A stretch of DNA of 64,000 nucleotides from positions 124,001 through 188,000 of the forward strand of contig JAFZKP010000047.1 of assembly GCA_017553625.1 (NCBI GenBank). The letters are read 5' to 3'. Source of the stretch: Bacteroidales bacterium. Lineage in GTDB: Bacteria > Bacteroidota > Bacteroidia > Bacteroidales > F082. A program made the position numbers and the translations under genes. Below, in pieces: positions 499 to 14,306 of the stretch. The stretch's first letter is position 1; each line of letters begins with the position of its first letter. The notes beneath the pieces were generated by a model. That model was not told the DNA's origin. It made no database searches and saw only the letters and a program-made list of their open reading frames with translations.

Positions 499-510
499 CA
501 TTATTTATTA

Positions 511-972
511 TTAAAAAGTTGTTTCTGTGAACTTTTTCCCTATTTCATGGATTTTCTCTAAAATCTCTTTTTCTCGTTCTTTTGAAGGTTTCTTAAAACC
601 ATTAATATAGTTTCGCAAAAGTGTTGCGTTGATTCCTGCCAGTTTAGCAAATTCTGTGATATTTATTTCTTTGTGAATAAGAAAAAACCTTTGAAATGCT
701 GAGGGCTCGGCATCTTCATAAAGAAAGCTTTCGAAGCTGACATCAACATCGAGATTTCGCCAATGAATACCGTCATAACCGAAAGAAAAAGCATTTTTCT
801 CCTCATCTGAGGCTTCTTTCAGTTTCTGATACCACAGCAGTGACTGTTTGTAAACATTACCGTTTTCATCTTCTCCGACGAGATGCTCATCGTCGAACCA
901 AATCTTTGTTATTTTCATTTTCGCAACCGAATTTTTCATAGTTCCCATCAACGTGAACGTGTATTGGTTCAT
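511..972 (-). CDS. DUF2442 protein with C-terminal helix-turn-helix
   Basis: 153 residues. The N-terminal half matches the DUF2442 pattern (KITKIWFDDEHL, then SLLWYQKL, then GIHWRNLDVDVSFESFL). The C-terminal half carries an XRE-like helix-turn-helix (ITEFAKLAGINATLLRNYI, then KKPSKEREKEI). Proteins of this type are small probable DNA-binding proteins, often near toxin-antitoxin or restriction genes; their exact job is unknown. A -7 box (1054-1061) lies about 80 bp upstream, so the gene probably has its own promoter. In-frame ATGs at 939 and 918 are possible; the family often begins near MKITK, so the true start may be 918. It is the last gene of the island. Confidence 0.75.
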   Translation of the reverse strand: MNQYTFTLMGTMKNSVAKMKITKIWFDDEHLVGEDENGNVYKQSLLWYQKLKEASDEEKNAFSFGYDGIHWRNLDVDVSFESFLYEDAEPSAFQRFFLIHKEINITEFAKLAGINATLLRNYINGFKKPSKEREKEILEKIHEIGKKFTETTF

Positions 973-1053
973 GTTCTCTTGAATAAAAGAAGAACGAGAA
1001 TCCGTAAAATCTAAAAATTTCAGGCATATAAACTCTAATTTTTAATCCCGCTG

Positions 1054-1061
1054 CAAAGATA
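1054..1061 (-). promoter_or_regulatory. -7 box (TATCTTTG) for the DUF2442 gene
   Basis: Minus-strand TATCTTTG, a full match to the Bacteroidetes TAnnTTTG box, about 80 bp upstream of the ATG at 972. No clear -33 box was identified. Confidence 0.55.
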
Positions 1062-1153
1062 GGAATTATTTTTGATACCTGAAATAATTTTTAAAATTTT
1101 TTTTACAATTCAATTGACAATCAATAATTCATATTGATGTATATAAAACAAAA

Positions 1154-1182
1154 AAACATCTGCCATTTTGCAGCAGATGTTT
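1154..1182 (-). terminator. Inverted repeat after the PLD gene, probable terminator; shares the island IR word
   Basis: Perfect 10-bp inverted repeat (1154-1163 and 1173-1182) around a 9-nt spacer CATTTTGCA. On the minus strand it is followed directly by a T run, as expected of a terminator for the operon ending at 1206. The inner arms and spacer are nearly the same as the promoter inverted repeats at 9622-9646 and 12104-12128, so it may also be a binding site. It has no -7 box at the 6-bp spacing seen at those sites. Confidence 0.6.
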
Positions 1183-1205
1183 AGGATTAATTATGAGAAC
1201 TCACA

Positions 1206-1718
1206 TTATACGATTGGATCCGAACAGAAGTCTTTTCGTTTGCATTTTTGGCATTCGCTGCCTCGCCATACTTTGTCGAACTCCTCAATTGCTGCATCCA
1301 GGATTTGTGGCTCATCGGTAAGGATGCCAGATTCAAAGTTACGTCTGGTGTCTGCTTTCATTCCCATGCCAGCACCGGTGAGGTTGGCGCTACCGATATA
1401 GCAGATTTCCATATCGATGATGATAATTTTGAAATGAACTCGCGGACACATTACACGCTCAAGGTGCTGAATGAGATTTGGATATCGGTCGAAATCGTCC
1501 CTGAAGTTTTGTCCGGGTTCTTTGGCATGGATGAGACGCACCTCAACTCCCTTTCCTATCAAATCGGATATAACTCCAAGAAAAGGCTTTTCCTTTTTGC
1601 CTTTCAGGATGTAAAGATCCTTGATATCGGCAGTGCCAATCCACAGGGTGTGCTTGGCTTTAGAGGCAAGGTCAAGCACAGTGGTGTAGTGGTCGGAGTC
1701 GGAGATGAAAGAGAGCAT
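1206..1718 (-). CDS. Phospholipase D-like nuclease domain protein
   Basis: 170 residues with one complete HKD motif: H95, K97, D102, then G109-S110-A-N112 (HxKx4Dx6GSxN). Single-HKD proteins of this size usually act as dimers and are often nucleases (Nuc/BfiI type); some are phospholipases. The C-terminus carries three cysteines (C156, C159, C165) in CQKCKRKDFC, possibly a metal site. There is no signal peptide, so it should be cytoplasmic. It lies 38 bp after the second DUF262 gene, in the same direction, and ends just before the terminator-like repeat at 1154-1182, so it is probably the last gene of the operon. The nuclease role is inferred from the motif and the neighbours. Confidence 0.78.
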   Translation of the reverse strand: MLSFISDSDHYTTVLDLASKAKHTLWIGTADIKDLYILKGKKEKPFLGVISDLIGKGVEVRLIHAKEPGQNFRDDFDRYPNLIQHLERVMCPRVHFKIIIIDMEICYIGSANLTGAGMGMKADTRRNFESGILTDEPQILDAAIEEFDKVWRGSECQKCKRKDFCSDPIV

Positions 1719-1756
1719 GCAAATTGAAAAACAATAGATTTTGTTGATTAGTCGAT

Positions 1757-4210
1757 TTACGGCAGTTTATTCAACAACGAATTTACATCTGTTTCAATTC
1801 TATTAACATAATCTTGAATATCACATTGTGTTTTAACCTCTTTGTAGTTGTATTTTATTCTACAAATCCACCCATTGGCTTTATATTCATCTGCAATGGG
1901 ATTAATTATTACAGAACGCAATTCTTCTGATTCTTTTATACCAACCCGCAAATCACCATTCGGACTAAACTCGTATACAAAATCATATTCATTAGTACCT
2001 TTTTGAATCTCCCTCTTGACTAATAGCGTACCACCCCAATGATATTTTGTGGAACCCACCAAATTTGTTTGCTCACAATTATAGTTTTTAACTAATTCAT
2101 TGATTATTTCATCTCTATAACTATCTACCAATATCCAGTCATACCATGATTTGGGTCTGTATACATAGTAACAATCTTGCCAGTAGTGCGCAAACCTTAT
2201 TGCGCCATTTTCCTGCATCCAATTTTGTAGAGTTGCATTTTTGTACAATTCCTCATGCATTTTAGTTTCAAATGGATTGGATGTATTTGACATTGTTGAA
2301 TCCAAGGCTGTAACTGAATTTAATGTTTGTAACAACGATGATTCGTCAGCTAAAGAACACCAAGAGCACAATGCTTTTCGGACTATATCGTCAGATGCTA
2401 GCATTTTTTTTAGATAATGCTCTTTCTCGTCACTATCGGTAAAACATCTATCTTTTATTTGCTCAAAATCTGTATATTGGCTAATAAGTGCACGAAGGAG
2501 GATGTGATCGGTGCGATATTTATCGTTAATCCCCCTGTCATTAAATAAAAGATTGGCAATTTGAACACGATGCTTAAATTCAGCAACACTCATGTCTGAA
2601 GATATTAAGAAACCAACTGAACCTTTAAAGAATAGATGTTTCTCTGCTTCAATAAAGGCTTCTTCCCATTTCGGGTCTAATTTAATGAATCTGATTTTTA
2701 TGCGCTCTTCCTCAACTGCATTCTTAGAAGAAGCGGATGTAATCGAATTTGGAAATTTTGAATAGATATCATCAGAATACGTCTCTAGTTCTTTAATCAA
2801 TTCTAAAACACCAATGGCACTTCCCCAACTATCAATATCTGTATTTTCAACTATGTTCCAAACTACACGCATCCATTGTGCAAATTTATCTGTATCAAAA
2901 TTTTCATTCTTTTTCAAATAAGCATATACACCATAAAGCACAACTCGTTGAGATTGTGTGATACCTTTCTCTACTAAAAAACGGGCTTCCATATTGTTCC
3001 ATGAGGCTTTTGCCTTCTCAAATATGACTTTGGTATTAGAAGAGAATCTATCAATTATTTGTTCAAAATTATGGATGCTATCTATGTTCAATAAAGACTC
3101 AAATGGTTTTAGTTCATTGAAACTGTTTTCTTTTTCAAAGAACTTAAAATAATCCTCTTTGTCAATTTCTTTGTTGGTTAAAGATGAATTAAAAATGTAT
3201 TCAAATAAAAAATATCTATAAAACAGACTTAACAACAATGGATCAACTAATTTGTCGGTAGGGTTATCACTGTTTTTATTATAGTCTTTTGTTATATCCC
3301 AGAGCATGTTGGTCCATTCATTATCAATTTTGTTCGAAAATACCATATAATATGGCATTTTACGACCGTTATAATCAACAAATTTTGACTTATCTTGTGG
3401 ATTGAAAGACTCTCCGTTATCTTTCATCCAGCCTATTAAATCAGCCTTAAAATTTTCGAATTCAGTTAATTGTTTGCCACGGGCATTCATCTTGATATAC
3501 AAATCGTCAGAAAGACCGAAGTCTTTCAATGGCAATTGATAGAAAACTATTACATTATTTTCCGTAAGAATTTTCCAATATTCGTCAAAAGTTTCTTTAT
3601 TAGTGCAATTGAAAATTTCTTCCAATCCGTCGACTATGTCGTTGCCTTTTTCGTCATTAATTTCAGTTCCGCCAAGCATTCTTAGCATCGATTGGATTGT
3701 CGGGTCTTGCTTCCATGCAGAATAGAACCACGTGCGGCTTGTGATATACTCAACAACCTTTCTATCTCCTTTTGTTGATACATATCCTTGGTAATCATTG
3801 AAGTTCTCAGGTTTGCACAGATTCTCACAAAACTCGCGTGACGAAATGCGAGTTTCGTATGTGAATTTTTTAAGCGTTTCACAAACATTTTCATTCAAAT
3901 TGCCCGACATTAATGCGACATACCAATGCAAAAGCCATAAAGTGGTCAAACGTTGCTGACCATCAAGCGGACTTAATTTGTCGTTCTCTACTGAACCATA
4001 GACAAAATCAAGTTTCATCTCAGTTTTTTCTTTTTCTTTCAAAGCATTGTCCAAAGCATCCTTTAAGTCCGTAAGAAAACTCTTTCGCAGATACTCTTTA
4101 CCCAATCTTCCTTGTGCATAATCGCGTTGAATGATTGGAATTTCTATTGTGTTGTCTGTAAGAAATTTCCAGAAAGTAGTTTTCTGTGCATTTGTATTAT
4201 TGTTGCTCAT
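1757..4210 (-). CDS. DUF262 domain protein (GmrS-like), second of a pair
   Basis: 817 residues. The N-terminal DUF262 (ParB/sulfiredoxin-like) domain shows IPIIQRDYAQGR at 24-35 and LDGQQRLTTLW around 82-92, then KMNARGKQLTEFENFKADL further on. In GmrSD and SspE the DGQQR motif belongs to an NTP-hydrolysing module that controls a nuclease. No HNH (DUF1524) signature is evident in the C-terminal half, so this partner may sense or regulate while the upstream partner cuts. Its start overlaps the end of the upstream DUF262 gene by 14 bp, which suggests translational coupling and equimolar subunits. AT-rich relative to the housekeeping genes. A defence role is inferred. Confidence 0.82.
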   Translation of the reverse strand: MSNNNTNAQKTTFWKFLTDNTIEIPIIQRDYAQGRLGKEYLRKSFLTDLKDALDNALKEKEKTEMKLDFVYGSVENDKLSPLDGQQRLTTLWLLHWYVALMSGNLNENVCETLKKFTYETRISSREFCENLCKPENFNDYQGYVSTKGDRKVVEYITSRTWFYSAWKQDPTIQSMLRMLGGTEINDEKGNDIVDGLEEIFNCTNKETFDEYWKILTENNVIVFYQLPLKDFGLSDDLYIKMNARGKQLTEFENFKADLIGWMKDNGESFNPQDKSKFVDYNGRKMPYYMVFSNKIDNEWTNMLWDITKDYNKNSDNPTDKLVDPLLLSLFYRYFLFEYIFNSSLTNKEIDKEDYFKFFEKENSFNELKPFESLLNIDSIHNFEQIIDRFSSNTKVIFEKAKASWNNMEARFLVEKGITQSQRVVLYGVYAYLKKNENFDTDKFAQWMRVVWNIVENTDIDSWGSAIGVLELIKELETYSDDIYSKFPNSITSASSKNAVEEERIKIRFIKLDPKWEEAFIEAEKHLFFKGSVGFLISSDMSVAEFKHRVQIANLLFNDRGINDKYRTDHILLRALISQYTDFEQIKDRCFTDSDEKEHYLKKMLASDDIVRKALCSWCSLADESSLLQTLNSVTALDSTMSNTSNPFETKMHEELYKNATLQNWMQENGAIRFAHYWQDCYYVYRPKSWYDWILVDSYRDEIINELVKNYNCEQTNLVGSTKYHWGGTLLVKREIQKGTNEYDFVYEFSPNGDLRVGIKESEELRSVIINPIADEYKANGWICRIKYNYKEVKTQCDIQDYVNRIETDVNSLLNKLP

Positions 4211-6188
4211 TTTTATCTTCGTTTTGATTGTTAGACGAATCCGTTACTCCAAACTCTTCCAATGTATTGAGAATATTTTGCCTGTAAGCCTTTGCATCTG
4301 GTTTTGTCCAATAATTGTAATTAGTCAAAACTGGAGTGTAATACTTCAAAAAAATATTCTTGGTACACAGAGGAATAAATGCGGTTTTCGCTTTTACTTC
4401 TTTTCCAACACTTAATTTGCTTTGATTATTTTCTCTTTTGATTTTAGGTATAGGCAACTCAACCCCTCTGTCTTTACCTATAATAATACGTCGCTTGGCA
4501 GCAAAGATTGAGTTGCCATAGCTGCGGTTTGTTGAAAAATCCAAAAGCGTAAAATTCCACACTTGGTTCTTTTCTTCATCCGACAGTGAATCTTTGACTT
4601 TCTTCGTATATTCATTGAAATCACTCCAATTTGGGGCATTAGGGTCATTGATAAATGCTTCAATTTTTTTCTGAATATCATCGTTGACGGAAAGATAAAT
4701 GTTCAGCAAAAATTCATTTTGTGAATCTTTATCACTCATATCGTTCTCTGAGTTCGAGTCTATATGCTCTACGTCCCATTTCTCTTTTTTGAATAGATGA
4801 AATGGAAATTTGTAGAACACTGGAAGTTCATACTCTTTTTTGTTTGTGAAATCTTTGCTCTGGTTTATTATGGTTTGAATATTATGTAACAACAGCAATG
4901 GTCGGCATTGTGTTTTCGGAGAACCGCTTATTTCATACTGCTTGTTCAAATCTTTGCAGTCTTTAATTGTATCCTTGATTTTCTTTTTCAAAGCTTCAAT
5001 AAATTCTATCTTTGTGCTTTTATCTCTCCAAATCTTCACTAATTCAGCTACAGATTGATTGTATTCCACCAAATATCCCACATAGTGATACAACTCCAAA
5101 TCGTTGAACCACTCTTGGAATGTCTGGAAATATTTCTTCACTTCTTTCCAACAATCTTCAATCTTTGGCTGAACTTTATTTCCTTGTTTGAAGTATTCAT
5201 AGAAATAGCGGAAAGTTTTGTATTCGTCTGTCCCGATAGATTCCAAAAGTTTTTCAGACAATCGCATAGCATTTTGCTCGCATATCAAATCGAAGATGAA
5301 GTCGATTCGAGTAGGTCGGTCGTAACCATTTTCGTGAAGGAAAAGCCAAAACTCTTCGTTTTGCAATGTGTATTCAATGTTATCCCACTCGCTGGCAATT
5401 TCTTGTTGACGAAGACGTAAATGGTTGCCATCTTCATTGCCAAAATTTGAACGATTGAGAAACAACGCTTTGATAAGTTCGGCATTGGTTAGCGAAATTT
5501 TACCAATGTTTAGACGCGTGAAAACTTTTATTGAATCAGTTTCTTCGGTTTCGTACCAAATAAATTTCACATTATCTAGAAGAATTTTTTTAAAAGCTTC
5601 TTTATCTTTTTCACCAAACCATTTTTTTATGGTTACAAATGCTACAAATAAATGATAGAAATCTATGTTGTCCCAACTCTTTTTCTTATTATTTTCCACG
5701 CCAACTATTTCCTTAAACTTTGCATTCGCTTCCTCATTATTATTGATTGAACAATCATCAATTCCAATAATTTTATCAAGAAACTCTCTGAAATCATTTC
5801 TCGTTTCATAGGATAGTGTATATTGCTTATCTCCTTCACGATTAAGGATGAACAATATGATGAACAATATTATGAATATCGTCGTTAATCGCTGTTGACC
5901 ATCAATGACCTCCCAAGAGCCTTTTAGTAATGATTTGACATCTTCAATGGTGTTTGCCGATTTTATTTGAGTAAGTATATCTTCTTCTCTGCTTTTTACA
6001 ACTAAAGGTTGTAGACAATAGAACTCACCATTGCGTTTGTCATTCTTTTGAGAAAACTCCCAAATATCATTCAGCAAATCTTTTACTTGCTGCTCTGTCC
6101 ATCTGTATCCTCGCTGATACGATGGAATAAAGAACTTCATTCCAAGAAGTTCGCCAACCGATTTGATTTCTATCTTCTTCTCTCCCAT
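4197..6188 (-). CDS. DUF262-DUF1524 (HNH) protein, GmrSD-type
   Basis: 663 residues. The DUF262 module shows PSYQRGYRW at 22-30 and DGQQR at 96-100, then FTRLNIGKISLTNAELIKA. The C-terminal DUF1524 HNH-like module shows WDVEHIDSNSEND (His near residue 474) and, about 70 residues later, NFTLLDFSTNRSYGN, the usual Asn-rich second half. This is the domain order of GmrSD type IV restriction enzymes and of SspE: an NTPase module plus an HNH nuclease. It lacks a nearby methylase or phosphorothioation genes. It is the fifth gene of the probable operon and overlaps the next gene by 14 bp. The target (modified phage DNA or something else) cannot be read from the sequence. Confidence 0.85.
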   Translation of the reverse strand: MGEKKIEIKSVGELLGMKFFIPSYQRGYRWTEQQVKDLLNDIWEFSQKNDKRNGEFYCLQPLVVKSREEDILTQIKSANTIEDVKSLLKGSWEVIDGQQRLTTIFIILFIILFILNREGDKQYTLSYETRNDFREFLDKIIGIDDCSINNNEEANAKFKEIVGVENNKKKSWDNIDFYHLFVAFVTIKKWFGEKDKEAFKKILLDNVKFIWYETEETDSIKVFTRLNIGKISLTNAELIKALFLNRSNFGNEDGNHLRLRQQEIASEWDNIEYTLQNEEFWLFLHENGYDRPTRIDFIFDLICEQNAMRLSEKLLESIGTDEYKTFRYFYEYFKQGNKVQPKIEDCWKEVKKYFQTFQEWFNDLELYHYVGYLVEYNQSVAELVKIWRDKSTKIEFIEALKKKIKDTIKDCKDLNKQYEISGSPKTQCRPLLLLHNIQTIINQSKDFTNKKEYELPVFYKFPFHLFKKEKWDVEHIDSNSENDMSDKDSQNEFLLNIYLSVNDDIQKKIEAFINDPNAPNWSDFNEYTKKVKDSLSDEEKNQVWNFTLLDFSTNRSYGNSIFAAKRRIIIGKDRGVELPIPKIKRENNQSKLSVGKEVKAKTAFIPLCTKNIFLKYYTPVLTNYNYWTKPDAKAYRQNILNTLEEFGVTDSSNNQNEDKNEQQ

Positions 6189-6226
6189 TATATATGCAAT
6201 TATTGATAATTTGGTGGTATGTCAAT

Positions 6227-6568
6227 CTAACTTCTTCTACTCCAGCTTCTTCCGCCGTTGGTTGAATAGTATAATCCTTTGCTTGTGTTTGCGAGTAGTT
6301 CTTTGCCTCCGTCGGCTAAGCTGCGGAAATCGCCACAGGATGAGCCGGAGTAACGAGGACTCCAAGAACGGCCACCATTGGTCGAATAGTAAACGCCTTT
6401 TGAAGTGACAGCAAGCAATTCGTTGCCGTATGCCATTAGTTCGATAAATGTTCCGCAAGATGAGCCAGAATAACGAGGGCTCCATGAGCGGCCACCGTTG
6501 GTTGAATACTCAACTCCTTTTGGAGAGACTCCAAGCATTTCCGTTCCGTTGTTAATCAGTTGAGGCAT
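6227..6568 (-). CDS. Small BNR/Asp-box-like repeat protein
   Basis: 113 residues made of three near-identical units of about 40 residues. Each has YYSTNGGRSWS (in the first, EYSTNGGRSWS), which resembles the bacterial neuraminidase repeat SxDxGxTW, followed by PRYSGSSCG and ELLA-TSKG. Three units are too few for a closed beta-propeller, so it may oligomerise or be a truncated family member. No signal peptide is seen, unlike secreted BNR glycosidases. It sits 12 bp after the RhuM-Fic gene and 38 bp before the DUF262 pair, so it is probably co-transcribed. The repeats make copy-number change by recombination plausible. Function is unknown. Confidence 0.6.
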   Translation of the reverse strand: MPQLINNGTEMLGVSPKGVEYSTNGGRSWSPRYSGSSCGTFIELMAYGNELLAVTSKGVYYSTNGGRSWSPRYSGSSCGDFRSLADGGKELLANTSKGLYYSTNGGRSWSRRS

Positions 6569-6580
6569 AATATTTAGTTT

Positions 6581-7579
6581 TTAATTGTTTCTTTGGTTTA
6601 TCAAATTCACCACTACCTTCACCATCACATCTTTTTCTTCGGGTTTGCTTTCAGCTATCATGAGAGTGAGGGCTACGAGGGTATTATCGGCGATACGCTT
6701 TGAGCCGTCTTCGCGGTAGAGGATGCCGTTGTTGTTGAGGAACCACAGGAAGAGTGTGGCGGCGATGCGCTTGTTGCCGTCGCTGAAGGAGTGATTCTTG
6801 ATAACGAGATAGAGGAGCGTTGCTGCTTTTTCCTCTACACTAGGGTATAATTCCACACCACCGAAGGTTTGATAGATTTGACCGATAGAGCTCTTGAAGG
6901 AATCGTCTTTTTCGTTGCCGAAAAGGACTGAACCGCCAAATTTTTCACGTAACTGGTTAATCTCTGCCATTGCATTTTCGTAGGTGGCATGGAAGTGTTC
7001 TTCCTTGGTAGTTTTCTCGATGGTTAGACGCTGATAGTCGTAATTGTCCAACGTGTCGAGAGCATATGTGTAGTCGGTGACAACCTCAAAAAGGGCGTTG
7101 GTTTCGTCGTTGGATAGTAACTGCTGGTTTTGGATAGTACGACCAAGCATGCCGACCAGCTGACGCAATTCTCCTATTTGATTGCGACGGATTCGTTCGT
7201 TGACAACGTAACCTTTAATCAAGTATTCTTTCAAAACTTTGTTTGCCCATTGACGGAACTGCACGCCTCGTTGACTCTTGACACGATAACCGACAGAAAT
7301 AATAACATCGAGGTTATAAAGCACAAGTTCTTTATTTTGCGTTTTCCCTTTAATTGCGCCATGTTGAGTGGTGTGTGCAAAATTTGCACATACCACTTTT
7401 CGATCTAGTTCACCTTCTTTAAAAACGTTGTTTATATGACGTGAAATGTCAGATCTGTCTTTCTGGAACAAATCAGCCATTTGGGCTTGTGAAAGCCATA
7501 CTGTTTCGTTCTCTACACGAACATCGATAGCTGTTTGTCCGTTGTCGGTTTGATAAATTACGATTTGATTCTCTTCCAT
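6581..7579 (-). CDS. RhuM-family / Doc-like Fic protein
   Basis: 332 residues. The N-terminal half is the RhuM (virulence protein) type, with VWLSQAQMADLFQKDRSDISRHI, which looks like a helix-turn-helix, and YNLDVIISVGYRVKSQRG. The C-terminal half is a Fic/Doc domain with H263-S-F-S-D-G-N-K-R271. HxFx(D/N)xNKR is the Doc form; P1 Doc phosphorylates EF-Tu, whereas HPFxEGNGR Fic proteins AMPylate. A toxin role is therefore plausible. No Phd-like antitoxin gene is adjacent, so the RhuM half or another operon member may restrain it. RhuM-Fic proteins are often found within restriction or defence loci. Third gene of the probable operon, 19 bp after the exonuclease gene. Confidence 0.85.
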   Translation of the reverse strand: MEENQIVIYQTDNGQTAIDVRVENETVWLSQAQMADLFQKDRSDISRHINNVFKEGELDRKVVCANFAHTTQHGAIKGKTQNKELVLYNLDVIISVGYRVKSQRGVQFRQWANKVLKEYLIKGYVVNERIRRNQIGELRQLVGMLGRTIQNQQLLSNDETNALFEVVTDYTYALDTLDNYDYQRLTIEKTTKEEHFHATYENAMAEINQLREKFGGSVLFGNEKDDSFKSSIGQIYQTFGGVELYPSVEEKAATLLYLVIKNHSFSDGNKRIAATLFLWFLNNNGILYREDGSKRIADNTLVALTLMIAESKPEEKDVMVKVVVNLINQRNN

Positions 7580-7581
7580 AG

Positions 7582-7611
7582 TTATAATATTTCTAAAATT
7601 ATAATATTTCT
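7582..7611. repeat. 13-bp direct repeat at the exonuclease/RhuM-Fic junction
   Basis: TTATAATATTTCT occurs at 7582-7594 and 7599-7611, 17 bp apart. The second copy forms the last codons and stop of the exonuclease gene; the first lies in the gap before the RhuM-Fic ATG. It may be a small local duplication. Confidence 0.4.
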
Positions 7612-8090
7612 CTTGCTATCCACGCGCAAGCTTCAGCATCGGCCAGGGCATGGTGATGATTCTCCAAATTATATCCGCAAGCATCCGCTACGGTTTGTAG
7701 TTGGTGGTTTTCCAAATCAGGAAGCTTTTTACGAGATGCACAAAGAGTGTCGTAGAACTCATAGTCGGGATAAGTCATCTGATAGACTCGGAACACCGCT
7801 TTTAGGCATCCTTCATCAAACGGACTGTTATGCGCCACCAGTGGCAAACCTTCGATGAGCGGCTCAATCTTTTCCCAAACGTATGGGAATACTGGAGCAT
7901 CGTCGGTGTCATTTTGACACAGGCCGTGAACTTCAGAACACCAGTAATTGTAATAGTTTGGCTCGGGTTGGATCAGCGAATAAAACGAATCGACTATCTC
8001 ACCGTTACGAACGATTACAACACCAACAGAACAAACCGAAGTGCGCTCGTTATTGGCTGTTTCAAAATCAATGGCTGCAAAGTCTTTCAT
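7599..8090 (-). CDS. DnaQ-like 3'-5' exonuclease (DEDDh)
   Basis: 163 residues, a stand-alone exonuclease domain. ExoI is D8-F-E10 (AAIDFETAN), ExoII is around NSPFDEG (D92), and ExoIII is HHHALADAEA with H146 and D151, so the DEDDh catalytic set appears complete. It should remove nucleotides from the 3' end of DNA or RNA. Its ATG overlaps the stop codon of the WYL gene (TAATG), a sign of translational coupling, so it is likely made together with the regulator. Some defence systems use DEDDh proteins as effectors or processing nucleases. Here that is inferred from context only. Confidence 0.85.
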   Translation of the reverse strand: MKDFAAIDFETANNERTSVCSVGVVIVRNGEIVDSFYSLIQPEPNYYNYWCSEVHGLCQNDTDDAPVFPYVWEKIEPLIEGLPLVAHNSPFDEGCLKAVFRVYQMTYPDYEFYDTLCASRKKLPDLENHQLQTVADACGYNLENHHHALADAEACAWIAREIL

Positions 8091-8992
8091 TACTTTTCCT
8101 CCTTATATTTGTTCCACATGCGCTTGATTTTACCGGCCATCTCTTTGCGAAGCCAAACAGGTTCAATGACTTCCATATCTTCACCATTCCAAAGCAACTC
8201 TTGTTGGAAATCGAAAGTTGGACGGAGGAAATAGGTAAAGATACTATATTCATCGTTACGCTCGACTTCTTTTTGAGATTCGTGAAGAGGCAAATCGCGA
8301 ATATAGTTGGCTTGACCCCAGTTGACTTTTAGTTTGACTGATTGCTTGTCGATATTAGAGAGGGGAAACATTCCAAAACAGCCACTAAAGAATTCATCAG
8401 CATCCCAGTCTTTGGGCATGACAAAAGTTTCCTCTTTTTTCGTTAGGCTGACAATACGATCGAGAGAATAAACGCGTCGTGTGTCGCTTTGCCCAATCAT
8501 GTACCAACGTTGACGGAATAGTTTGATACAAAGAGGAATGACGTTGAAAGAGCTGTCTTCGTCTCGCCAATAACTGTGATATGTGATGTTGAGAAGATTA
8601 TTTCCTTTCATGGCCTCGATAATTGTTTGAAGATATTCTTGGCCAGAAGGAACGTTTTCTAAAAATATACGGTCTTTAAGTTGTTTGTTTTCCATAATAA
8701 GATTGCTTACGGAGATGGTGCTGAGCAGCCAACTCCGTAAGCCTCCATTTTTGATATCATCGACATTTTCGATGTAATAGTGGTAGCCTCCTCTGCGTTC
8801 GCATTGGATATCGATACCAAATATTACTTCCACCTCATTTCGCCAAGTGTTGAATGTTCGTTTGGGGATTTCAACGCCTTCGCTAATGTCATCATCAAGC
8901 CATTTTTTGTTGATGTCCTCAAAGGAAATATACTTGTTCTTGTAGATTGTTTCAACAAGCCAGACGTATTTGTTAAGGAGGTTAATCGACAT
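8090..8992 (-). CDS. WYL-domain transcriptional regulator
   Basis: About 300 residues from MSINLLNKYVW. An N-terminal winged-helix-like region (PKRTFNTWRNEVEVIFGIDI) is followed by a WYL domain: NITYHSYWRDEDSSFNVIP, KLFRQRWYMIGQSDTRRVYSLDRI, and the usual C-terminal extension (FWL-type region ending EMAGKIKRMW). WYL regulators sense ligands, often nucleic acids or nucleotides, and frequently control defence loci. The start at 8992 is chosen over the ATG at 9010 because a full -7 box at 9008-9015 would place the latter upstream of transcription. It is the first gene of the proposed operon and is coupled to the exonuclease gene. It may act on the island's inverted-repeat promoters, but its own promoter lacks that repeat. 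Confidence 0.85.
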   Translation of the reverse strand: MSINLLNKYVWLVETIYKNKYISFEDINKKWLDDDISEGVEIPKRTFNTWRNEVEVIFGIDIQCERRGGYHYYIENVDDIKNGGLRSWLLSTISVSNLIMENKQLKDRIFLENVPSGQEYLQTIIEAMKGNNLLNITYHSYWRDEDSSFNVIPLCIKLFRQRWYMIGQSDTRRVYSLDRIVSLTKKEETFVMPKDWDADEFFSGCFGMFPLSNIDKQSVKLKVNWGQANYIRDLPLHESQKEVERNDEYSIFTYFLRPTFDFQQELLWNGEDMEVIEPVWLRKEMAGKIKRMWNKYKEEK

Positions 8993-9007
8993 AATGAATA
9001 ATTTTTG

Positions 9008-9015
9008 CAAATATA
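9008..9015 (-). promoter_or_regulatory. -7 box (TATATTTG) of the WYL-led operon
   Basis: Minus-strand TATATTTG, a full match to TAnnTTTG, 15 bp upstream of the ATG at 8992. It implies a very short leader. It would drive the seven-gene operon down to 1206. Confidence 0.6.
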
Positions 9016-9037
9016 ATAAAAAAGAAAGGATAAGAAA

Positions 9038-9565
9038 CTATTTTCCGAAAATCATATCTTTTTTAATGTTTTCGACTGCCTCATCGACAATGGCATCCCA
9101 CAAAGAGCTATCCTCCAATTCATCAACCGGGATGTATTGCTGATAACGCTTGAGGAAATCGAGAGAGTAGATTTCTTCTTCACGCCAGTGGCCGTTGATA
9201 AGTTTTGCCCAATCCCAGCGGTCGATGTATTTGTCGATCATTTCGTATGACAGCTTGAGATCACTATTGTCGGATAATTCCTGCCAATCCCAAAAATCTT
9301 TATATCTTTCGATGATTTCGGGGGATAAAAGCAATTCGTTGGATGTTCGAGAGAGTTGTTTCCAATCAATCTCATTTTTCCAGCGGTCGAGCATTTCGGT
9401 TGTCCAGTTGATTTCACGATTGTCGGAGATTTCATGCCAGTCGAGTTCGTGCCAGTACTGGTGAATCATGTCGTTTGTTAAAGCAAATTCAGAAGAAATT
9501 CTTTTCATTGCTTCTTTCTTGACTTGCTTTTTGAGCAAAGCTTCAATGGTATTGTTTGTTTCCAT
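9038..9565 (-). CDS. Tryptophan-rich repeat protein of unknown function
   Basis: About 175 residues from METNNTIEALL. The middle consists of three or four degenerate units of about 30 residues with the pattern W-W-(E/K)-(I/L)-S-x-N...(S/T)-x-E-(M/I)-(I/L)-(D/E)-(K/R)-(Y/W)-x-(D/N), e.g. EIDWKQLSRTSN, WDWQELSDNSDL and DKYIDRWDWAKL. Such DWxxLSxN repeats occur in uncharacterised Bacteroidetes proteins and suggest a helical repeat solenoid for binding. There is no signal peptide. It is a single-gene unit with an island-type inverted-repeat promoter at 9608-9646. The ATG at 9589 is rejected in favour of 9565, where the repeat family region begins sooner after the promoter. Function unknown. Confidence 0.65.
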   Translation of the reverse strand: METNNTIEALLKKQVKKEAMKRISSEFALTNDMIHQYWHELDWHEISDNREINWTTEMLDRWKNEIDWKQLSRTSNELLLSPEIIERYKDFWDWQELSDNSDLKLSYEMIDKYIDRWDWAKLINGHWREEEIYSLDFLKRYQQYIPVDELEDSSLWDAIVDEAVENIKKDMIFGK

Positions 9566-9607
9566 AGTGTAAATATAACAGTAATACAATAATTTTAATT
9601 AACGATG

Positions 9608-9646
9608 CAAAGAAATGATAAGGATATGCCATTTTGTAGCAGAAGT
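9608..9646 (-). promoter_or_regulatory. Island promoter module 2: -7-like box plus degenerate inverted repeat
   Basis: On the minus strand an inverted-repeat site (9622-9646, spacer 9630-9638 CATTTTGTA on the plus strand) is followed after exactly 6 bp by TTTCTTTG (9608-9615). The geometry is identical to that at 10350-10371 and 12090-12111. The arms are degenerate here: the inner three base pairs and one more match. The downstream gene starts 43 bp away at 9565. Confidence 0.55.
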
Positions 9647-9659
9647 TTAAAATATTTCG

Positions 9660-10328
9660 TTAAACATTACATATCAGATTCGCCCATGCTTCGTGAACGT
9701 AGGTATAGGTAGTCATCTGAAGAACATCGGGGAAACTGTAACCATGCTCGTTGAGTAGATCCCAAAGAGAATAGCATGGTTTGATGTCGGGGGCCATGAA
9801 AAATGATGCCCTGATGGACTCTCGCCAACCTTCGTCGTAAGCGGAGAAACCTTCCCCGCAACACTCAAAAATATCAAAGTCAAACAATGAGAAGGCATCA
9901 ATAATTTTTATCATTCTGTTCCAATTTGAGCCGTAATAATCATCATCTTCAAGGGGTTGCAACTGAGGACTTTCTTCATCATGCCGGTAAACCAAATGGC
10001 TATATAGCGTATAGTTATTGTCGATTTCTTTTAGTTTTTTGTACATATCAATATGTTTGACAATCATGTTTTTTTCAATGGATTCCAACTTACTATTGAT
10101 TTCAGAAAGTCTTACATAATCAGTCGCATTGAAATGAAGTTCAAACAGACGGTCGAGGATGTCGGCTCTTTCTTCTATTTTAGGTCTGATTCGGTTTTTA
10201 TTGCCAAGATTAAAAATTTTTTCGCCATCATCATATTTATAGGCGAGTTTTTCCATGTCCCACTCACACTGTTTGAGCATCTCGCGGAGGATGTCTGGAT
10301 TAGTTTCTTTGCGAATAAGTCTGTTCAT
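9660..10328 (-). CDS. Hypothetical protein in the island
   Basis: 222 residues from MNRLIRKETNPDILREML. I do not recognise the family. It is acidic and mostly helical, with a region around LRQ/KLKEIDNNYTLY that may form a coiled coil, and a C-terminal half containing FDIFECCGEGFSAYDEGWRES and TTYTYVHEAW. No signal peptide or membrane segment. The longer reading frame from 10400 is rejected because its start would overlap the ATPase gene end and lie upstream of the promoter box at 10350-10357; that extension also looks non-coding (hydrophobic, Cys-rich). It lies directly downstream of the AAA+ gene and carries its own copy of the inverted-repeat promoter, so the two are probably co-regulated. 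Confidence 0.6.
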   Translation of the reverse strand: MNRLIRKETNPDILREMLKQCEWDMEKLAYKYDDGEKIFNLGNKNRIRPKIEERADILDRLFELHFNATDYVRLSEINSKLESIEKNMIVKHIDMYKKLKEIDNNYTLYSHLVYRHDEESPQLQPLEDDDYYGSNWNRMIKIIDAFSLFDFDIFECCGEGFSAYDEGWRESIRASFFMAPDIKPCYSLWDLLNEHGYSFPDVLQMTTYTYVHEAWANLICNV

Positions 10329-10349
10329 GATATAATAAATTTTACAATA

Positions 10350-10390
10350 CAAAGAAAACACCAAGATGTGCCAAATCACTGCACATCTTG
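10350..10390 (-). promoter_or_regulatory. Island promoter module 3: -7-like box plus perfect inverted repeat
   Basis: Perfect 10-bp inverted repeat (10362-10371 CAAGATGTGC, 10381-10390 GCACATCTTG) with a 9-nt spacer. Counting the inner 8-bp arms, a TTTCTTTG box (10350-10357) follows after exactly 6 bp on the minus strand. The ATG at 10328 is 21 bp further on. The repeat begins 6 bp after the ATPase stop codon, so it could also attenuate or terminate that transcript, but it has no adjoining T run. Confidence 0.65.
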
Positions 10391-10396
10391 AAATAA

Positions 10397-12058
10397 TCAC
10401 TTTACAAATCCGATTTTTCCAGTCACCCTCTGCCCTAACCGTTCGTTATCGCAATGCGACATAAGGGTTTCGAGAGAAATAGAGTCTTCGCCATGCAGAA
10501 TGCCATCGATGGCATAATGACGTGCGATGTTCTCAATCTGACCTCCGCTGAAGTCATACTTTTTAGCCAAAGCAGTAATATCAGAATCGCTGAGCGACGG
10601 CAACATCTCATGCCAAATACTCATACGCGCTTCCAACGATGGTTTGTTGAACTTGATCTTGTAAAGAAAACGACGCTCAAAAGCCTTGTCCATATTCTGC
10701 GCAAGATTTGTCGTGGCAATCATTATACCGTTAAGCGTTTCCATCTCCTGAAGGATAATGTTTTGAATGGAATTCTCCATCTTGTCAACTGCACGTTCAG
10801 CCCCCTCTTTCCTTTTCCCAATGATGGCATCAGCCTCGTTGAAAAGCAATATTGGCGTAATGTCCATCTTTTCGGCCTTCATACGATACGTGTCAAACAA
10901 ATGCTTGATATTTTTCTCGCTCTCGCCCACCCATGCACTCTTGATTTCTGGAATATTTACCTGCATTATATTTCGACCAGTCTGTCTTGCGAGCTGTAAA
11001 ACTGTTTCCGTCTTACCCGTACCTGGCGCACCATAAAATAAACAAGTGAAACCACTACGATAGCCTTGCTCTTTCAAACGCGAACATATTTCTTTGTAAT
11101 GCTTCTCCTCCAACAATTGGCGCAAATTCTCAACTTGAGAGTTAACTTCCATATCATAGAAAAGCTGTTTAGGTGTAATCTCCTGATGTTTGATAAGGTT
11201 CCCTCCCGATTTATCTTGATTCATCGAAGCCAAATTAAGTTCGGGGAAAAGCATTTGTTTCGCCAACCAAGTCATACGATAAAATTCTCGATTCACAAAA
11301 CCCTCTTCATTATTAAACTCAATCATCTTTGTCTCCTGCAAGATATGCGTTCCGTTTGTAAGCCTTGATTTTAACATACTTTTTTCAAAACTTCTATCAT
11401 AAAGGAAAACCAAATCATGTGTTCCGATGTTGTCATCGTTGTTGTTCACAAACAGATGCGAAAACAGCACCAGTAATATCTCGTCTTTTTCAGAAAACTG
11501 GAAACTTTTCAGTTTTTGTACGAAAACAAGGTGTTTATTGTTTTCCAGTAAATCTTGAATACGCTGTTTGGTCAATTCGTATGTAAGCTCGTCATCCTCA
11601 CGCATCTGAAATATTTCATCAAACATACCAAACAAATCATATATACTCAAACCAGATAATTTTCTTGGTACAAATTCCTCATCTTTTCTAAATGAATCGA
11701 TAGTTTCCATTGGTACTCGGTAGGTAATTTTACTACCTGAGCGACTACAATGAATCATACCGCGCTGTTCCAAACCTTCAATATCATTCATGAAACGAAT
11801 TATTCTCGTCATACTACAGTCGAGATGTTTAGCGAAATCACTGATTGTGATACTCATGTCGCTGCTGTTGTCGATGAAGAGAGCCATCATTATGCTTTGC
11901 TCTTTAGTAAGATTCATCTTTTTAGAAATGTAATTCAGGGGCCTTGCAGCTTTCTTATAAAAATCCGCATCCAAGTGTGAATCCTTAGACAATTCCACAA
12001 TTTTCTCAACCGCTGAAAGCAAGTCCATTTTCTTGGCAGATTTCTTAATTGTTTCCAT
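10397..12058 (-). CDS. AAA+ ATPase with N-terminal winged-helix region
   Basis: 553 residues. Residues about 45-115 look like a winged helix (ITISDFAKHLDCSMTRIIRF, then GSKITYRV as the wing). The C-terminal third is a classical AAA+ module: Walker A GAPGTGKTE near residue 343, WVGESEKNI, a Walker B-like ILLFNEADAI, sensor-1 MIATTNLAQNMD, and arginine-finger ERRF. The Walker B acidic pair is N-E instead of the usual D-E; the catalytic Glu is kept. This resembles Bacteroidetes DNA-associated or protease-like AAA ATPases without assigned function. Substrate is unknown. It is transcribed alone from an inverted-repeat promoter (12090-12128). The winged helix makes it one candidate binder of the repeated site. 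It is the first gene of the island after clpB. Confidence 0.8.
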   Translation of the reverse strand: METIKKSAKKMDLLSAVEKIVELSKDSHLDADFYKKAARPLNYISKKMNLTKEQSIMMALFIDNSSDMSITISDFAKHLDCSMTRIIRFMNDIEGLEQRGMIHCSRSGSKITYRVPMETIDSFRKDEEFVPRKLSGLSIYDLFGMFDEIFQMREDDELTYELTKQRIQDLLENNKHLVFVQKLKSFQFSEKDEILLVLFSHLFVNNNDDNIGTHDLVFLYDRSFEKSMLKSRLTNGTHILQETKMIEFNNEEGFVNREFYRMTWLAKQMLFPELNLASMNQDKSGGNLIKHQEITPKQLFYDMEVNSQVENLRQLLEEKHYKEICSRLKEQGYRSGFTCLFYGAPGTGKTETVLQLARQTGRNIMQVNIPEIKSAWVGESEKNIKHLFDTYRMKAEKMDITPILLFNEADAIIGKRKEGAERAVDKMENSIQNIILQEMETLNGIMIATTNLAQNMDKAFERRFLYKIKFNKPSLEARMSIWHEMLPSLSDSDITALAKKYDFSGGQIENIARHYAIDGILHGEDSISLETLMSHCDNERLGQRVTGKIGFVK

Positions 12059-12089
12059 AATGATTCCTTTCCATTATTAAATTTCGAGG

Positions 12090-12128
12090 CAAATTTAGGC
12101 CGCACATGTGCCATTTTATTGCACATGT
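12090..12128 (-). promoter_or_regulatory. Island promoter module 4: TAAATTTG box plus inverted repeat
   Basis: Inverted repeat ACATGTGC (12104-12111) / GCACATGT (12121-12128) with spacer CATTTTATT. After exactly 6 bp, minus-strand TAAATTTG (12090-12097) is a full TAnnTTTG box. The ATPase ATG lies 32 bp downstream. The repeat covers the place where a -33 box should be and no TTG is seen there, which fits regulator-dependent promoter use. Confidence 0.7.
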
Positions 12129-12140
12129 TAAAAAACGACA

Positions 12141-12177
12141 AAAAAAACATCCACAGCTTTTAAAACTATGGATGTTT
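12141..12177 (-). terminator. Rho-independent terminator of clpB
   Basis: On the minus strand a 10-bp stem (12166-12175 with 12148-12157, one G-T pair) and an AT-rich loop are followed by seven T (12141-12147), downstream of the clpB stop codon. Confidence 0.8.
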
Positions 12178-12219
12178 GAGATTTCTCCACTACGCCTTAC
12201 GGCTTCGGTCGAAATGACG
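12174..12219 (-). repeat. Interspersed repeat family A, copy 2 (right island bracket)
   Basis: Reverse complement of the element at 457-498: shares the CGTCATTTCGACCGAAGC end and the GTGGAGAAATCTCAAAC end, with a 4-bp longer middle. It lies just after clpB, partly against its terminator. Confidence 0.75.
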
Positions 12220-12224
12220 GATTG

Positions 12225-14306
12225 TTAGTTCTTGAAAACCAACCCGTTTCCGTCGAAATCAACCGTAATCGGCTTGTCTTTGTTGACCTTGTCGGCGATG
12301 ATCATGCGCGAGAGTTCGTTGAGTATTTCACGCTGCATCATACGTTTCACTGGACGAGCGCCGTATTGCGGGTCGTAGCTGATCTTTGCCATGTACTTCA
12401 TTGCAGCATCGGTCATGTTGATGTCGATGCCGTTAGGTTTGAGCATCTCTTTGACTTTGTTGAACTGCATTGCGACAACGCTAACTATCTGTTCCTCAGT
12501 GAGTTGCTTGAACACGATAATGTCGTCGATACGGTTCAGGAACTCAGGTCTGAAGTGACTACGCAAATCATTTTCTGGCACGTTAGATGTCATGATGATG
12601 ATGGTGTTCTTGAAGTCCACCAGACGACCTTTGTTGTCGGTAAGACGGCCATCGTCCAAGACCTGCAGCAAGATGTTGAACACGTCAGGATGTGCCTTTT
12701 CAATCTCGTCGAGAAGCACCACCGAATATGGCTTACGACGCACTGCCTCAGTGAGTTGGCCACTCTCTTCGTAGCCCACATATCCTGGAGGCGCACCAAT
12801 CAAACGCGACACGGTGTGACGCTCCTGATACTCCGACATATCGATACGTACCATGTTGTTCTCATTGTCGAACAAAAACTCCGCCAAAGCCTTTGCCAGC
12901 TCGGTCTTACCGACGCCAGTGGTTCCCAAGAATATGAACGAGCCAATTGGTCGTTTCGAGTCCTGCAAGCCTGCCCTACTCCTTCTGATAGCATCGGAAA
13001 CAGCGGCGATAGCATCGTCTTGTCCAACGACACGTTTATGCAGCTCTGTCTCAAGGTTCAAAAGTTTTTCACGTTCGCTTTGCATCATCTTATGAACCGG
13101 AATGCCAGTCCAACGTGAGACGATTTCAGCCACATCGTCGGCAGAGACTTCCTCGTCAACCAATGGGTTATCTCCCTGAACCTTAATGAGTTGCTCTTTC
13201 GCTTTGGCAATAGCGGCCTCCGACTCGGCAATCTTACCGTAACGCAGTTCGGCGACCTTGCCGTAGTTGCCTTCACGTTCAGCAACCGTTGCCTGATATT
13301 TGTAGTTCTCGATATTCTGTTTCTCTTTCTGAATCTTCTCCACAAACCCACGCTCGGTCTCCCAACGCATGCGAATGCTCTGGCGTTCCTTATCCAATTC
13401 GTTGATAGTCTTGGTCAATTCCTCGACTTTCTTCTTGTCGTTTTCTCGTTTGATAGCCTCGCGCTCGATCTCAAGCTGACGAATCTTACGCTGCACGTCT
13501 TCGAGTTCCTCTGGAACCGAGTTTATCTGCAAACGCAATCTCGAAGCCGCCTCATCAATCAAATCGATAGCCTTATCAGGCAAGAAACGGTCGGAAATGT
13601 AACGAATTGACAAATCCACTGCTGCAATGATAGCCTCATCAAGGATTCGCACCTGATGATGCGTCTCGTATTTCTCTTTCAGACCACGCAAAATCGATAT
13701 TGCCGACTGCTCGTCAGGCTCGTCGATCATCACAATCTGGAAACGACGCTCCAGAGCCTTATCCTGCTCGAAATATTTCTGATATTCGTTGAGGGTTGTA
13801 GCACCGATAGCACGCAACTCACCTCTTGCCAAAGCCGGTTTCAGAATGTTTGCCGCATCCATTGCGCCCTGACCTCCGCCAGCGCCCACCAAAGTATGAA
13901 TCTCATCGATGAAAAGTATCACCTCGCCTTCGCTTTCGACCACCTCTTTGATGACCGATTTCAGACGTTCCTCGAACTCGCCCTTGTACATTGCGCCTGC
14001 GATAAGTGCACCCATATCAAGGGAATACACCTTCTTCGACTTCAGGTTTTCAGGTACGTCGCCGCTCACGATACGCTGCGCCAAGCCCTCTGCAATTGCC
14101 GTCTTACCAACGCCCGGCTCACCTATTAATATAGGGTTGTTTTTGGTGCGTCGCGACAAGATTTGAAGCACTCGACGAATCTCCTCGTCACGACCGATAA
14201 CCGGGTCAAGTTTGCCTTTATCGGCAAGAGCGTTGAGGTTTCGCGCAAACCTGTCCAAAGCCTTCTCCTGTCCGTTTTGCTGATTGTTAAACTGGTTGTT
14301 ATTCAT
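12225..14306 (-). CDS. clpB: ClpB-type disaggregase lacking the N-terminal domain
   Basis: 693 residues, against about 860 usual. It begins with an Asn/Gln-rich linker, then NBD1 ([48 protein letters not shown]), the coiled-coil M domain (about residues 260-380, including [20 protein letters not shown]), and NBD2 ([42 protein letters not shown]). The amino-terminal substrate-binding domain is absent. This is genuine: an in-frame TAG lies 15 bp upstream and a strong Shine-Dalgarno sits at 14315-14321. The loop between TSNV and RPEFLNR is also short. With DnaK it should solubilise aggregates; E. coli naturally makes a similar short ClpB from an internal start. Transcribed alone, with direct repeats upstream (14375-14407). 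Confidence 0.92.

Follow-up and report, generated by a model that had tools for sequence, protein, structure and literature searches.

Why should three genes that follow one another in a defense-like island each begin behind the same short element? The island lies in a stretch of 64,000 nucleotides from a Bacteroidales bacterium of the F082 lineage (assembly GCA_017553625.1, contig JAFZKP010000047.1, positions 124,001 to 188,000 of the forward strand), which we call the window. A sequence-only reading had described the element as a promoter module, an inverted repeat at a constant distance from a -7-like box. Its coordinates, spacing, and boxes held, all on the minus strand: TGC-N7-TGGCA-N15-TTTG is common to 9608-9643, 10350-10385, and 12090-12125. 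The inverted repeat claimed for every site is strong at the second and third and degraded at the first, which by eye retains the TGC/GCA core and one outer pair only and thus resembles an eroded copy. Since the three sites were known before the pattern was drawn up, the chance figures overstate the surprise: the window has exactly three matches, against a mean of 0.02 and a maximum of 1 in 100 dinucleotide shuffles, and these are also the only matches without mismatch in the organism's own assembly (2,473,346 bases in 52 contigs, 86.7% complete), where allowing one mismatch gives 17 matches versus 10 for the reversed pattern. Our answer is that the module is likely to be an operator-promoter, bound by a homodimer of a WYL-family protein that would activate a changing set of nuclease-, repair-, and defense-like genes.

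The genome-wide motif search proposed in the sequence-only reading gave no further exact match in the organism's own genome but up to 11 modules per genome in relatives. We searched 99 genomes of the genus with TGTGC-N7-TGGCACA-N13-TTTG, allowing up to one mismatch, and obtained 194 matches versus 9 for the reversed pattern (the reversed total was counted by hand). Matches fell in 64 of the 99 genomes, and some of the single ones may be due to chance. The general module consists of the palindrome TGTGC-N9-GCACA and, after it, a Bacteroidetes -7 box, with 15 bases between GCA and TTTG. The maximum of 11 was reached on one contig, within about 20 kb and all in the same direction (G029:C31; G, C, and L numbers are our handles for genomes, contigs, and loci). 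A narrower pattern, applied to named genomes, returned 45 stretches, all labelled Bacteroidales, Bacteroidia, Porphyromonadaceae, or bacterium F082. Ruminant stomachs are named as the source of three of these, and many bear RUG names, which we take to be those of rumen collections. In an order-wide sample of 393 genomes, an exact pattern was found at 8 places in 6 genomes, compared with none for the control.

The modules stand at gene starts. We based their anatomy on 131 intergenic modules, leaving out the 14 of 145 matches that lie inside predicted genes. A same-strand open reading frame (ORF) starts within 220 bp of 123 of the 131, at a median of 29 bases from TTTG. Most loops read NNNNATTYG and most boxes TTTCTTTGCA or TATCTTTGCA; because the scan demanded both half-sites and TTTG, the near-invariance of the core is partly imposed. 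Between successive modules on the same strand (57 intervals in 20 regions, with ORFs called mechanically) there was one gene in 16 intervals, two to four in 37, and more in 4. Therefore, the unit behind a module is a gene or a short run of genes.

Orthologs of the three window genes keep the module. Loci L005 to L018 were fetched by the AAA+ ATPase protein alone, not by the module pattern, and at 65 to 69% identity (L005 to L011) a module lay upstream of the AAA+ gene in 7 of 7. A relative at 45% identity, from another family of the order (L012), has one as well. For the other two genes the loci were largely chosen by the pattern; here, the module was present, with at most one mismatch, in 5 of 5 other distinct upstream regions for the 175-amino-acid (aa) protein gene and in 2 of 2 for the 222-aa protein gene. 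In the count for the 175-aa protein gene, and in those of distinct upstream regions given below for the WYL and exonuclease genes, a match was dropped if it did not begin near the query start, if it covered less than 60% of the query, or if fewer than 120 bases lay upstream. Comparison with relatives thus supports the idea that one regulator acts on the promoter module that these genes share.

What kind of promoter is this? The available text of PMC7366714 gives the Bacteroidetes promoter consensus as TAnnTTTG at -7 and TTTG near -33. Counting by this consensus, with the last G of TTTG at -4, the half-sites would occupy roughly -39 to -35 and -25 to -21. That no TTG is seen near -33 was confirmed in the window, and it holds in relatives: only 2 of 83 module promoters have a TTG between -36 and -31, versus 54 of 144 ordinary TAnnTTTGC promoters from the same loci, a comparison that is stronger as description than as statistics because the module copies are related and the 83 are not independent (54 distinct cores).

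We then asked which protein reads the module. Two candidates had been named, the WYL protein and the AAA+ ATPase; the first fits and the second does not. Among the matches listed, 37 of the 40 genus genomes that have at least two modules, and 28 of the 59 others, encode a protein with at least 50% identity to the WYL protein of the window (partial matches counted; P = 3e-6). Of 36 contigs with at least two listed modules, 22 carry a WYL ortholog, 4 carry a divergent WYL, and 10 carry none; 9 of these 10 belong to genomes with an ortholog elsewhere. The linkage is also seen from the other side. Twenty loci picked by the position of their WYL gene (305 kb) contain 22 palindromes with a spacer of 9 and TTTG at 15 bases, spread over 15 loci, whereas other TTTG distances gave a mean of 1.09 and other spacers 0 to 3. 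When the two loci that the module list had already contained (G094:C366 and G061:C14) are set aside, 18 palindromes remain in 13 of 18 loci. WYL genes themselves have a module upstream in 15 of 37 distinct upstream regions, with up to 3 of 14 mismatches. A second type of array, built on TGTGCAA-N5-TTGCACA (L084 to L087), has the same distance to the -7 box and an adjacent divergent WYL (21 to 29% identity) in 4 of 4 loci. In two motif-found loci from two other families (G385 and G217), a WYL gene lies amid several looser module matches.

By the same counts, a regulatory role for the AAA+ ATPase is scarcely credible. All 20 genus genomes with an AAA+ protein of at least 58% identity do have modules (19 of the 40 with two or more, and 1 of the 59 others). 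However, the close AAA+ protein is absent from 21 of those 40 genomes, it was seen in none of the 20 WYL-picked loci, though 15 of them have modules, and it is itself a module-borne cassette.

A separate observation concerns L118 to L121, where the genes of a WYL subclade with an altered N-terminal region start behind an altered palindrome, TATGCCC-N5-GGGCAYA. The regulator and the operator may change together in this subclade.

Several observations count against a WYL protein reading the module as its operator. In eleven genus genomes the pattern detects no module even though a WYL ortholog is present, and 5 of the 20 WYL-picked loci are without a module, including loci from three of those eleven genomes (G099, G005, and G090). 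Among the matches listed, G071 and G115 have at least two modules and no close WYL, and G016 has only a divergent one. Outside the genus, 6 of 8 loci have no WYL within the fetched stretch. The WYL gene of the window has no module of its own, and none lies upstream of the six distant AAA+ homologs at 32 to 42% identity (L013 to L018). The WYL-picked loci (L104 to L123) also contain 12 exact TGTGC-N7-GCACA palindromes, both strands counted, with no -7 box at the module distance. Finally, the outer arms of the modules pair more often than shuffled partners, although the copies are related, and a plain operator needs no such pairing. The shared descent of the 83 promoters compared at -33 belongs with these points.

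If a WYL protein does bind the module, would it activate or repress? The window protein matches Pfam WYL (2.6e-11) and then WCX (1.4e-9), both over the cut-off. Its N terminus has no Pfam helix-turn-helix match, matches to solved structures start at about residue 115, and the conserved region there resembles a winged helix by eye only. Residues R162, W163, Y164, D178, and R179 are invariant in 23 aligned WYL sequences. When its profile was compared with solved structures, PafBC (7e-13) and DriD (about 1e-11; structures 9pfq, 9pfv, and 9pga are DriD complexes [PMC12340889]) were matched far better than CapW (0.07) and BrxR (0.4).

The available text of PMC12340889 describes DriD of Caulobacter crescentus as a homodimeric WYL-WCX activator of several genes whose pseudo-palindrome overlaps -35 at a constant distance from -10, in promoters with a poor -35, and which activates once its WYL domain holds single-stranded DNA. 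SiwR of Mycobacterium smegmatis, as described in the available text of PMC10693628, is a WYL homodimer that activates under genotoxic stress from a 19-bp imperfect palindrome between -35 and -10. The geometry of the module is that of DriD and SiwR, with 19 bp over -33, a fixed distance, and no -33 element, and for this reason we propose activation by a WYL dimer. Activation rather than repression appears most likely because module promoters are without a TTG at -33 and because this WYL protein is closest to PafBC and DriD, both of them activators. The systems do differ. The half-sites of DriD are ATACGAC-N7-GTCGTAT rather than TGTGC-N9-GCACA, the targets named in that text are separate chromosomal genes and not a cassette array, and the phylum and sigma factor are different. 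SiwR controls adjacent genes of one operon, and a repeated module is not mentioned for it in the text available.

The main rival, which we consider unlikely, is that the WYL protein represses in the fashion of BrxR and CapW, blocking polymerase on the module and letting go upon infection. WYL proteins are known to repress defense loci: BrxR binds an inverted repeat just downstream of its own promoter and thereby shuts it down (available text of PMC9122601), and BrxR and CapW, which act on BREX and CBASS, resemble the present case in placing a WYL regulator with an inverted-repeat operator in a defense-like island. The palindrome covers the polymerase site, and a weak promoter under repression would likewise be without a -33 element, which adds to the points against activation. 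However, the site proposed here is at about -39 to -21 with a spacer of 9, upstream, whereas BrxR has 11-bp repeats with a 5-bp spacer in two boxes, the first of them downstream of the promoter. A TTG at -33 is scarce in module promoters and present in many ordinary ones, and the window protein is only a weak sequence match to BrxR and CapW.

Under the activation that we favor, a WYL homodimer, usually encoded in an array of the same genome, would bind TGTGC-N9-GCACA. The occupied site would cover the place of the -33 element, and the dimer would recruit RNA polymerase to the -7 box at its fixed distance. It would activate in the way that DriD and SiwR do, and the signal may be a nucleic acid, bound by the WYL domain, that reports damage or phage attack. 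Genes or short runs that enter an array would come to stand behind a copy of the module, and a changing set of genes would thereby answer to one switch.

Does the element also act on the gene before it? Stems of at least 8 pairs are found at 47 of the 100 modules that follow a co-directional gene end within 150 bp, compared with 5 of the 31 others (P = 0.003), and a T-rich stretch often comes after the stem. Predicted folds are stable at modules 2 and 3 and for the common module and weak at module 1. Since long arms are tied to an upstream gene and a T-rich stretch, transcription of the preceding gene probably ends at the outer stem, with the core and the box forming the promoter. In many copies, then, the extended palindrome and its T-rich stretch would serve as a terminator as well.

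This raises the alternative that the element is mainly the intrinsic terminator of the upstream gene and that the promoter distance is constant by descent only. It overlaps with the explanation that we prefer, and as an account of the whole element we regard it as rather improbable. The excess of long stems after co-directional genes, the T-rich stretch, the pairing of the arms beyond shuffled partners, and the stable folds at modules 2 and 3 all agree with it. However, 31 of the 131 modules have no co-directional gene end within 150 bp and keep the core and the 15-base distance (both were required by the scan, so only the existence of such modules counts), and core and distance persist in variants that have few T residues and lack the outer stem. 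A terminator-like hairpin already follows ClpB, ahead of module 3. Thus, a terminator accounts for the outer stem and not for the core.

The modules also mark the junctions at which neighbors change. We compared the flanks of 116 sites (6,670 pairs): 44 pairs were similar upstream only, 94 downstream only, 11 on both sides, and 6,215 on neither, with 306 between cut-offs. Similarity of the upstream flanks extends as far as the module's left edge, and that of the downstream flanks sets in at its right edge. Therefore, neighbors change with the module as a fixed junction. In both kinds of one-flank pair, similarity spans the whole module without a sharp crossover point. Exchange by homology through near-identical modules would be the simplest reading of this pattern.

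Integrons likewise carry cassettes arranged head to tail, with hairpins where they join, and in both respects the module arrays are like them. Unlike integrons, the arrays have a promoter at each module and no tyrosine recombinase, such as the IntI integrase, on 12 of 13 contigs. That search was for PF00589, so it was aimed at tyrosine recombinases and not at serine recombinases or transposases, and the contigs are fragments of metagenome-assembled genomes; the one exception, G002:C20, has a PF00589 gene about 88 kb away, and such genes are present in all 12 genomes searched. The rAID arrays of Bacteroidales are, in the available text of PMC12247911, co-oriented short genes with conserved intergenic motifs, a description that the module arrays fit. 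Their defining components are a tyrosine recombinase and immunity genes; the module arrays differ in the absence of such a recombinase from the same 12 contigs and in their cargo, of which the identifiable part is for the most part nuclease-, modification-, and repair-like. That the element is itself the recombination site of an integron-like or rAID-like system is highly unlikely in our view. Co-oriented cassettes do change neighbors with the module at the junction, as such a system would have it, but the contigs are largely without the recombinase, the absence of a sharp crossover point is what homologous exchange would leave, and a recombination site accounts for neither the -7 box nor the WYL linkage.

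A broader proposal, which we hold as possible but doubtful, is that of an integrase-free cassette platform, in which one 40-bp element would be operator, promoter, terminator, and exchange homology at once and different Bacteroidales lineages would run parallel platforms with matched WYL and operator variants. If this is true, any gene recombined into an array comes under the control of the same WYL switch automatically.

What do the arrays carry? We examined the window genes and one representative each of 20 families chosen from 20 regions. The cassette families include RhuM-Fic (PDC-S23), GmrSD_N pairs, DEDDh exonuclease, DrmC-like PLD, PD-(D/E)XK (PDC-S26), UzuA, Nmad2, Nmad3, HAD_SAK_2, YgjP-type metallopeptidase, AAA_15, FtsK, tubulin/FtsZ-like, and MoxR. 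A uracil-DNA-glycosylase match was just below its cut-off, and vWA matches were below theirs. There was no Pfam match for 6 of the 20 representatives. Most of the cassettes that can be given a name are thus of nuclease, modification, or repair type.

WYL activators, defense-like islands, and Bacteroidetes promoters are all of known kinds. In the open-licence literature searched, the available text describes neither the module nor any cassette arrays of Bacteroidales under WYL control. What appears new by that measure is an operator-promoter that recurs where the genes of a shuffling array meet, together with matched WYL and operator variants. The WYL regulators compared each control, in the available text, one operon or a few separate genes, whereas here a WYL-linked operator-promoter precedes many exchangeable cassette families. 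If our explanation is correct, some uncultured gut-type Bacteroidales could keep a variable repertoire of defense and repair genes quiet until a single signal arrives. The module would also be a practical tag, making the genes behind it, several of them without a known family, candidates for defense or repair, and the operator can be searched for in any genome with a WYL ortholog.

Other readings of the window sequence were considered. A palindrome at about 1156-1180 on the minus strand forms a perfect hairpin with loop TGCAAAATG and is followed by a T run; it lies after the PLD-type gene and upstream of the gene at 511-972. We rejected it as a fourth module since its TTTG is at 8 bases, not 15. 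It resembles the module stem but is probably an ordinary terminator. A sigma-54 promoter reading of TGGCA was rejected because, by eye, the distances do not fit. Sigma-70 boxes were not clearly above chance (24 versus a shuffled mean of 19.2, standard deviation 3.6), and Rfam returned no family up to an E value of 0.5 for window positions 500 to 12400. The looser pattern TGTGC-N9-GCACA with two mismatches gave only a slight excess in the organism's own genome (800 versus 686 for the control) and was not used.

Table 1. Modules and island genes of the window
Feature	Position	Strand	Remarks
Module 1 (eroded)	9608..9643	-	TCTGC-N9-GCATA; GCA to TTTG, 15 bases; -7-like box TTTCTTTG at 9608-9615
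Module 2	10350..10385	-	TGTGC-AGTGATTTG-GCACA; 10-bp outer arms; -7-like box TTTCTTTG at 10350-10357
Module 3	12090..12125	-	TGTGC-AATAAAATG-GCACA; 8-bp arms; -7 box TAAATTTG at 12090-12097
Cassette gene behind module 1	9038..9565	-	175 aa from ATG; family F12; no Pfam match above cut-off, no NCBIfam family
Cassette gene behind module 2	9660..10328	-	222 aa; family F27; no Pfam or NCBIfam family
Cassette gene behind module 3, AAA+ ATPase	10397..12058	-	Nearest named models IetA (PADLOC) and IteA (NCBIfam)
WYL-WCX protein, proposed module reader	8090..8992	-	Own start without module in this genome
DEDDh-type exonuclease	7599..8090	-	Comes after WYL in many arrays
RhuM-Fic fusion (PDC-S23)	6581..7579	-	Often a module-carrying cassette elsewhere; no module found in the window
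BNR mini-protein	6227-6568	-	113 aa; three BNR/Asp-box repeats
Two GmrSD_N (DUF262) proteins	4197-6188, 1757-4210	-	Adjacent, 14-base overlap
DrmC-like PLD protein	1206-1718	-	

The AAA+ ATPase behind module 3 scores 97 bits against NCBIfam IteA, for which the cut-off is 510. In another family of the order, an AAA+ cassette 58% identical to it has a module of its own (L180, genome G410); that locus has three similar modules 6 to 8 kb apart in one direction, and no WYL gene was found in its 16 kb. The DEDDh-type exonuclease gene had a module in 0 of 32 distinct upstream regions. The families encoded in the island part at 1206..6568 on the minus strand (BNR, GmrSD_N, and DrmC-like PLD) recur in the arrays of relatives. 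The RhuM-Fic fusion is 77 to 84% identical across arrays whose neighbors differ (L066, L067, L079, and L095), and its module often has 16, not 15, bases to TTTG, with the box TATCTTTG. The BNR mini-protein has a 96% identical copy in G070 (L109) and copies of 69 to 77% identity in G020 and G023. Both GmrSD_N families stand side by side again in L064, L066, L078, L080, and L083.

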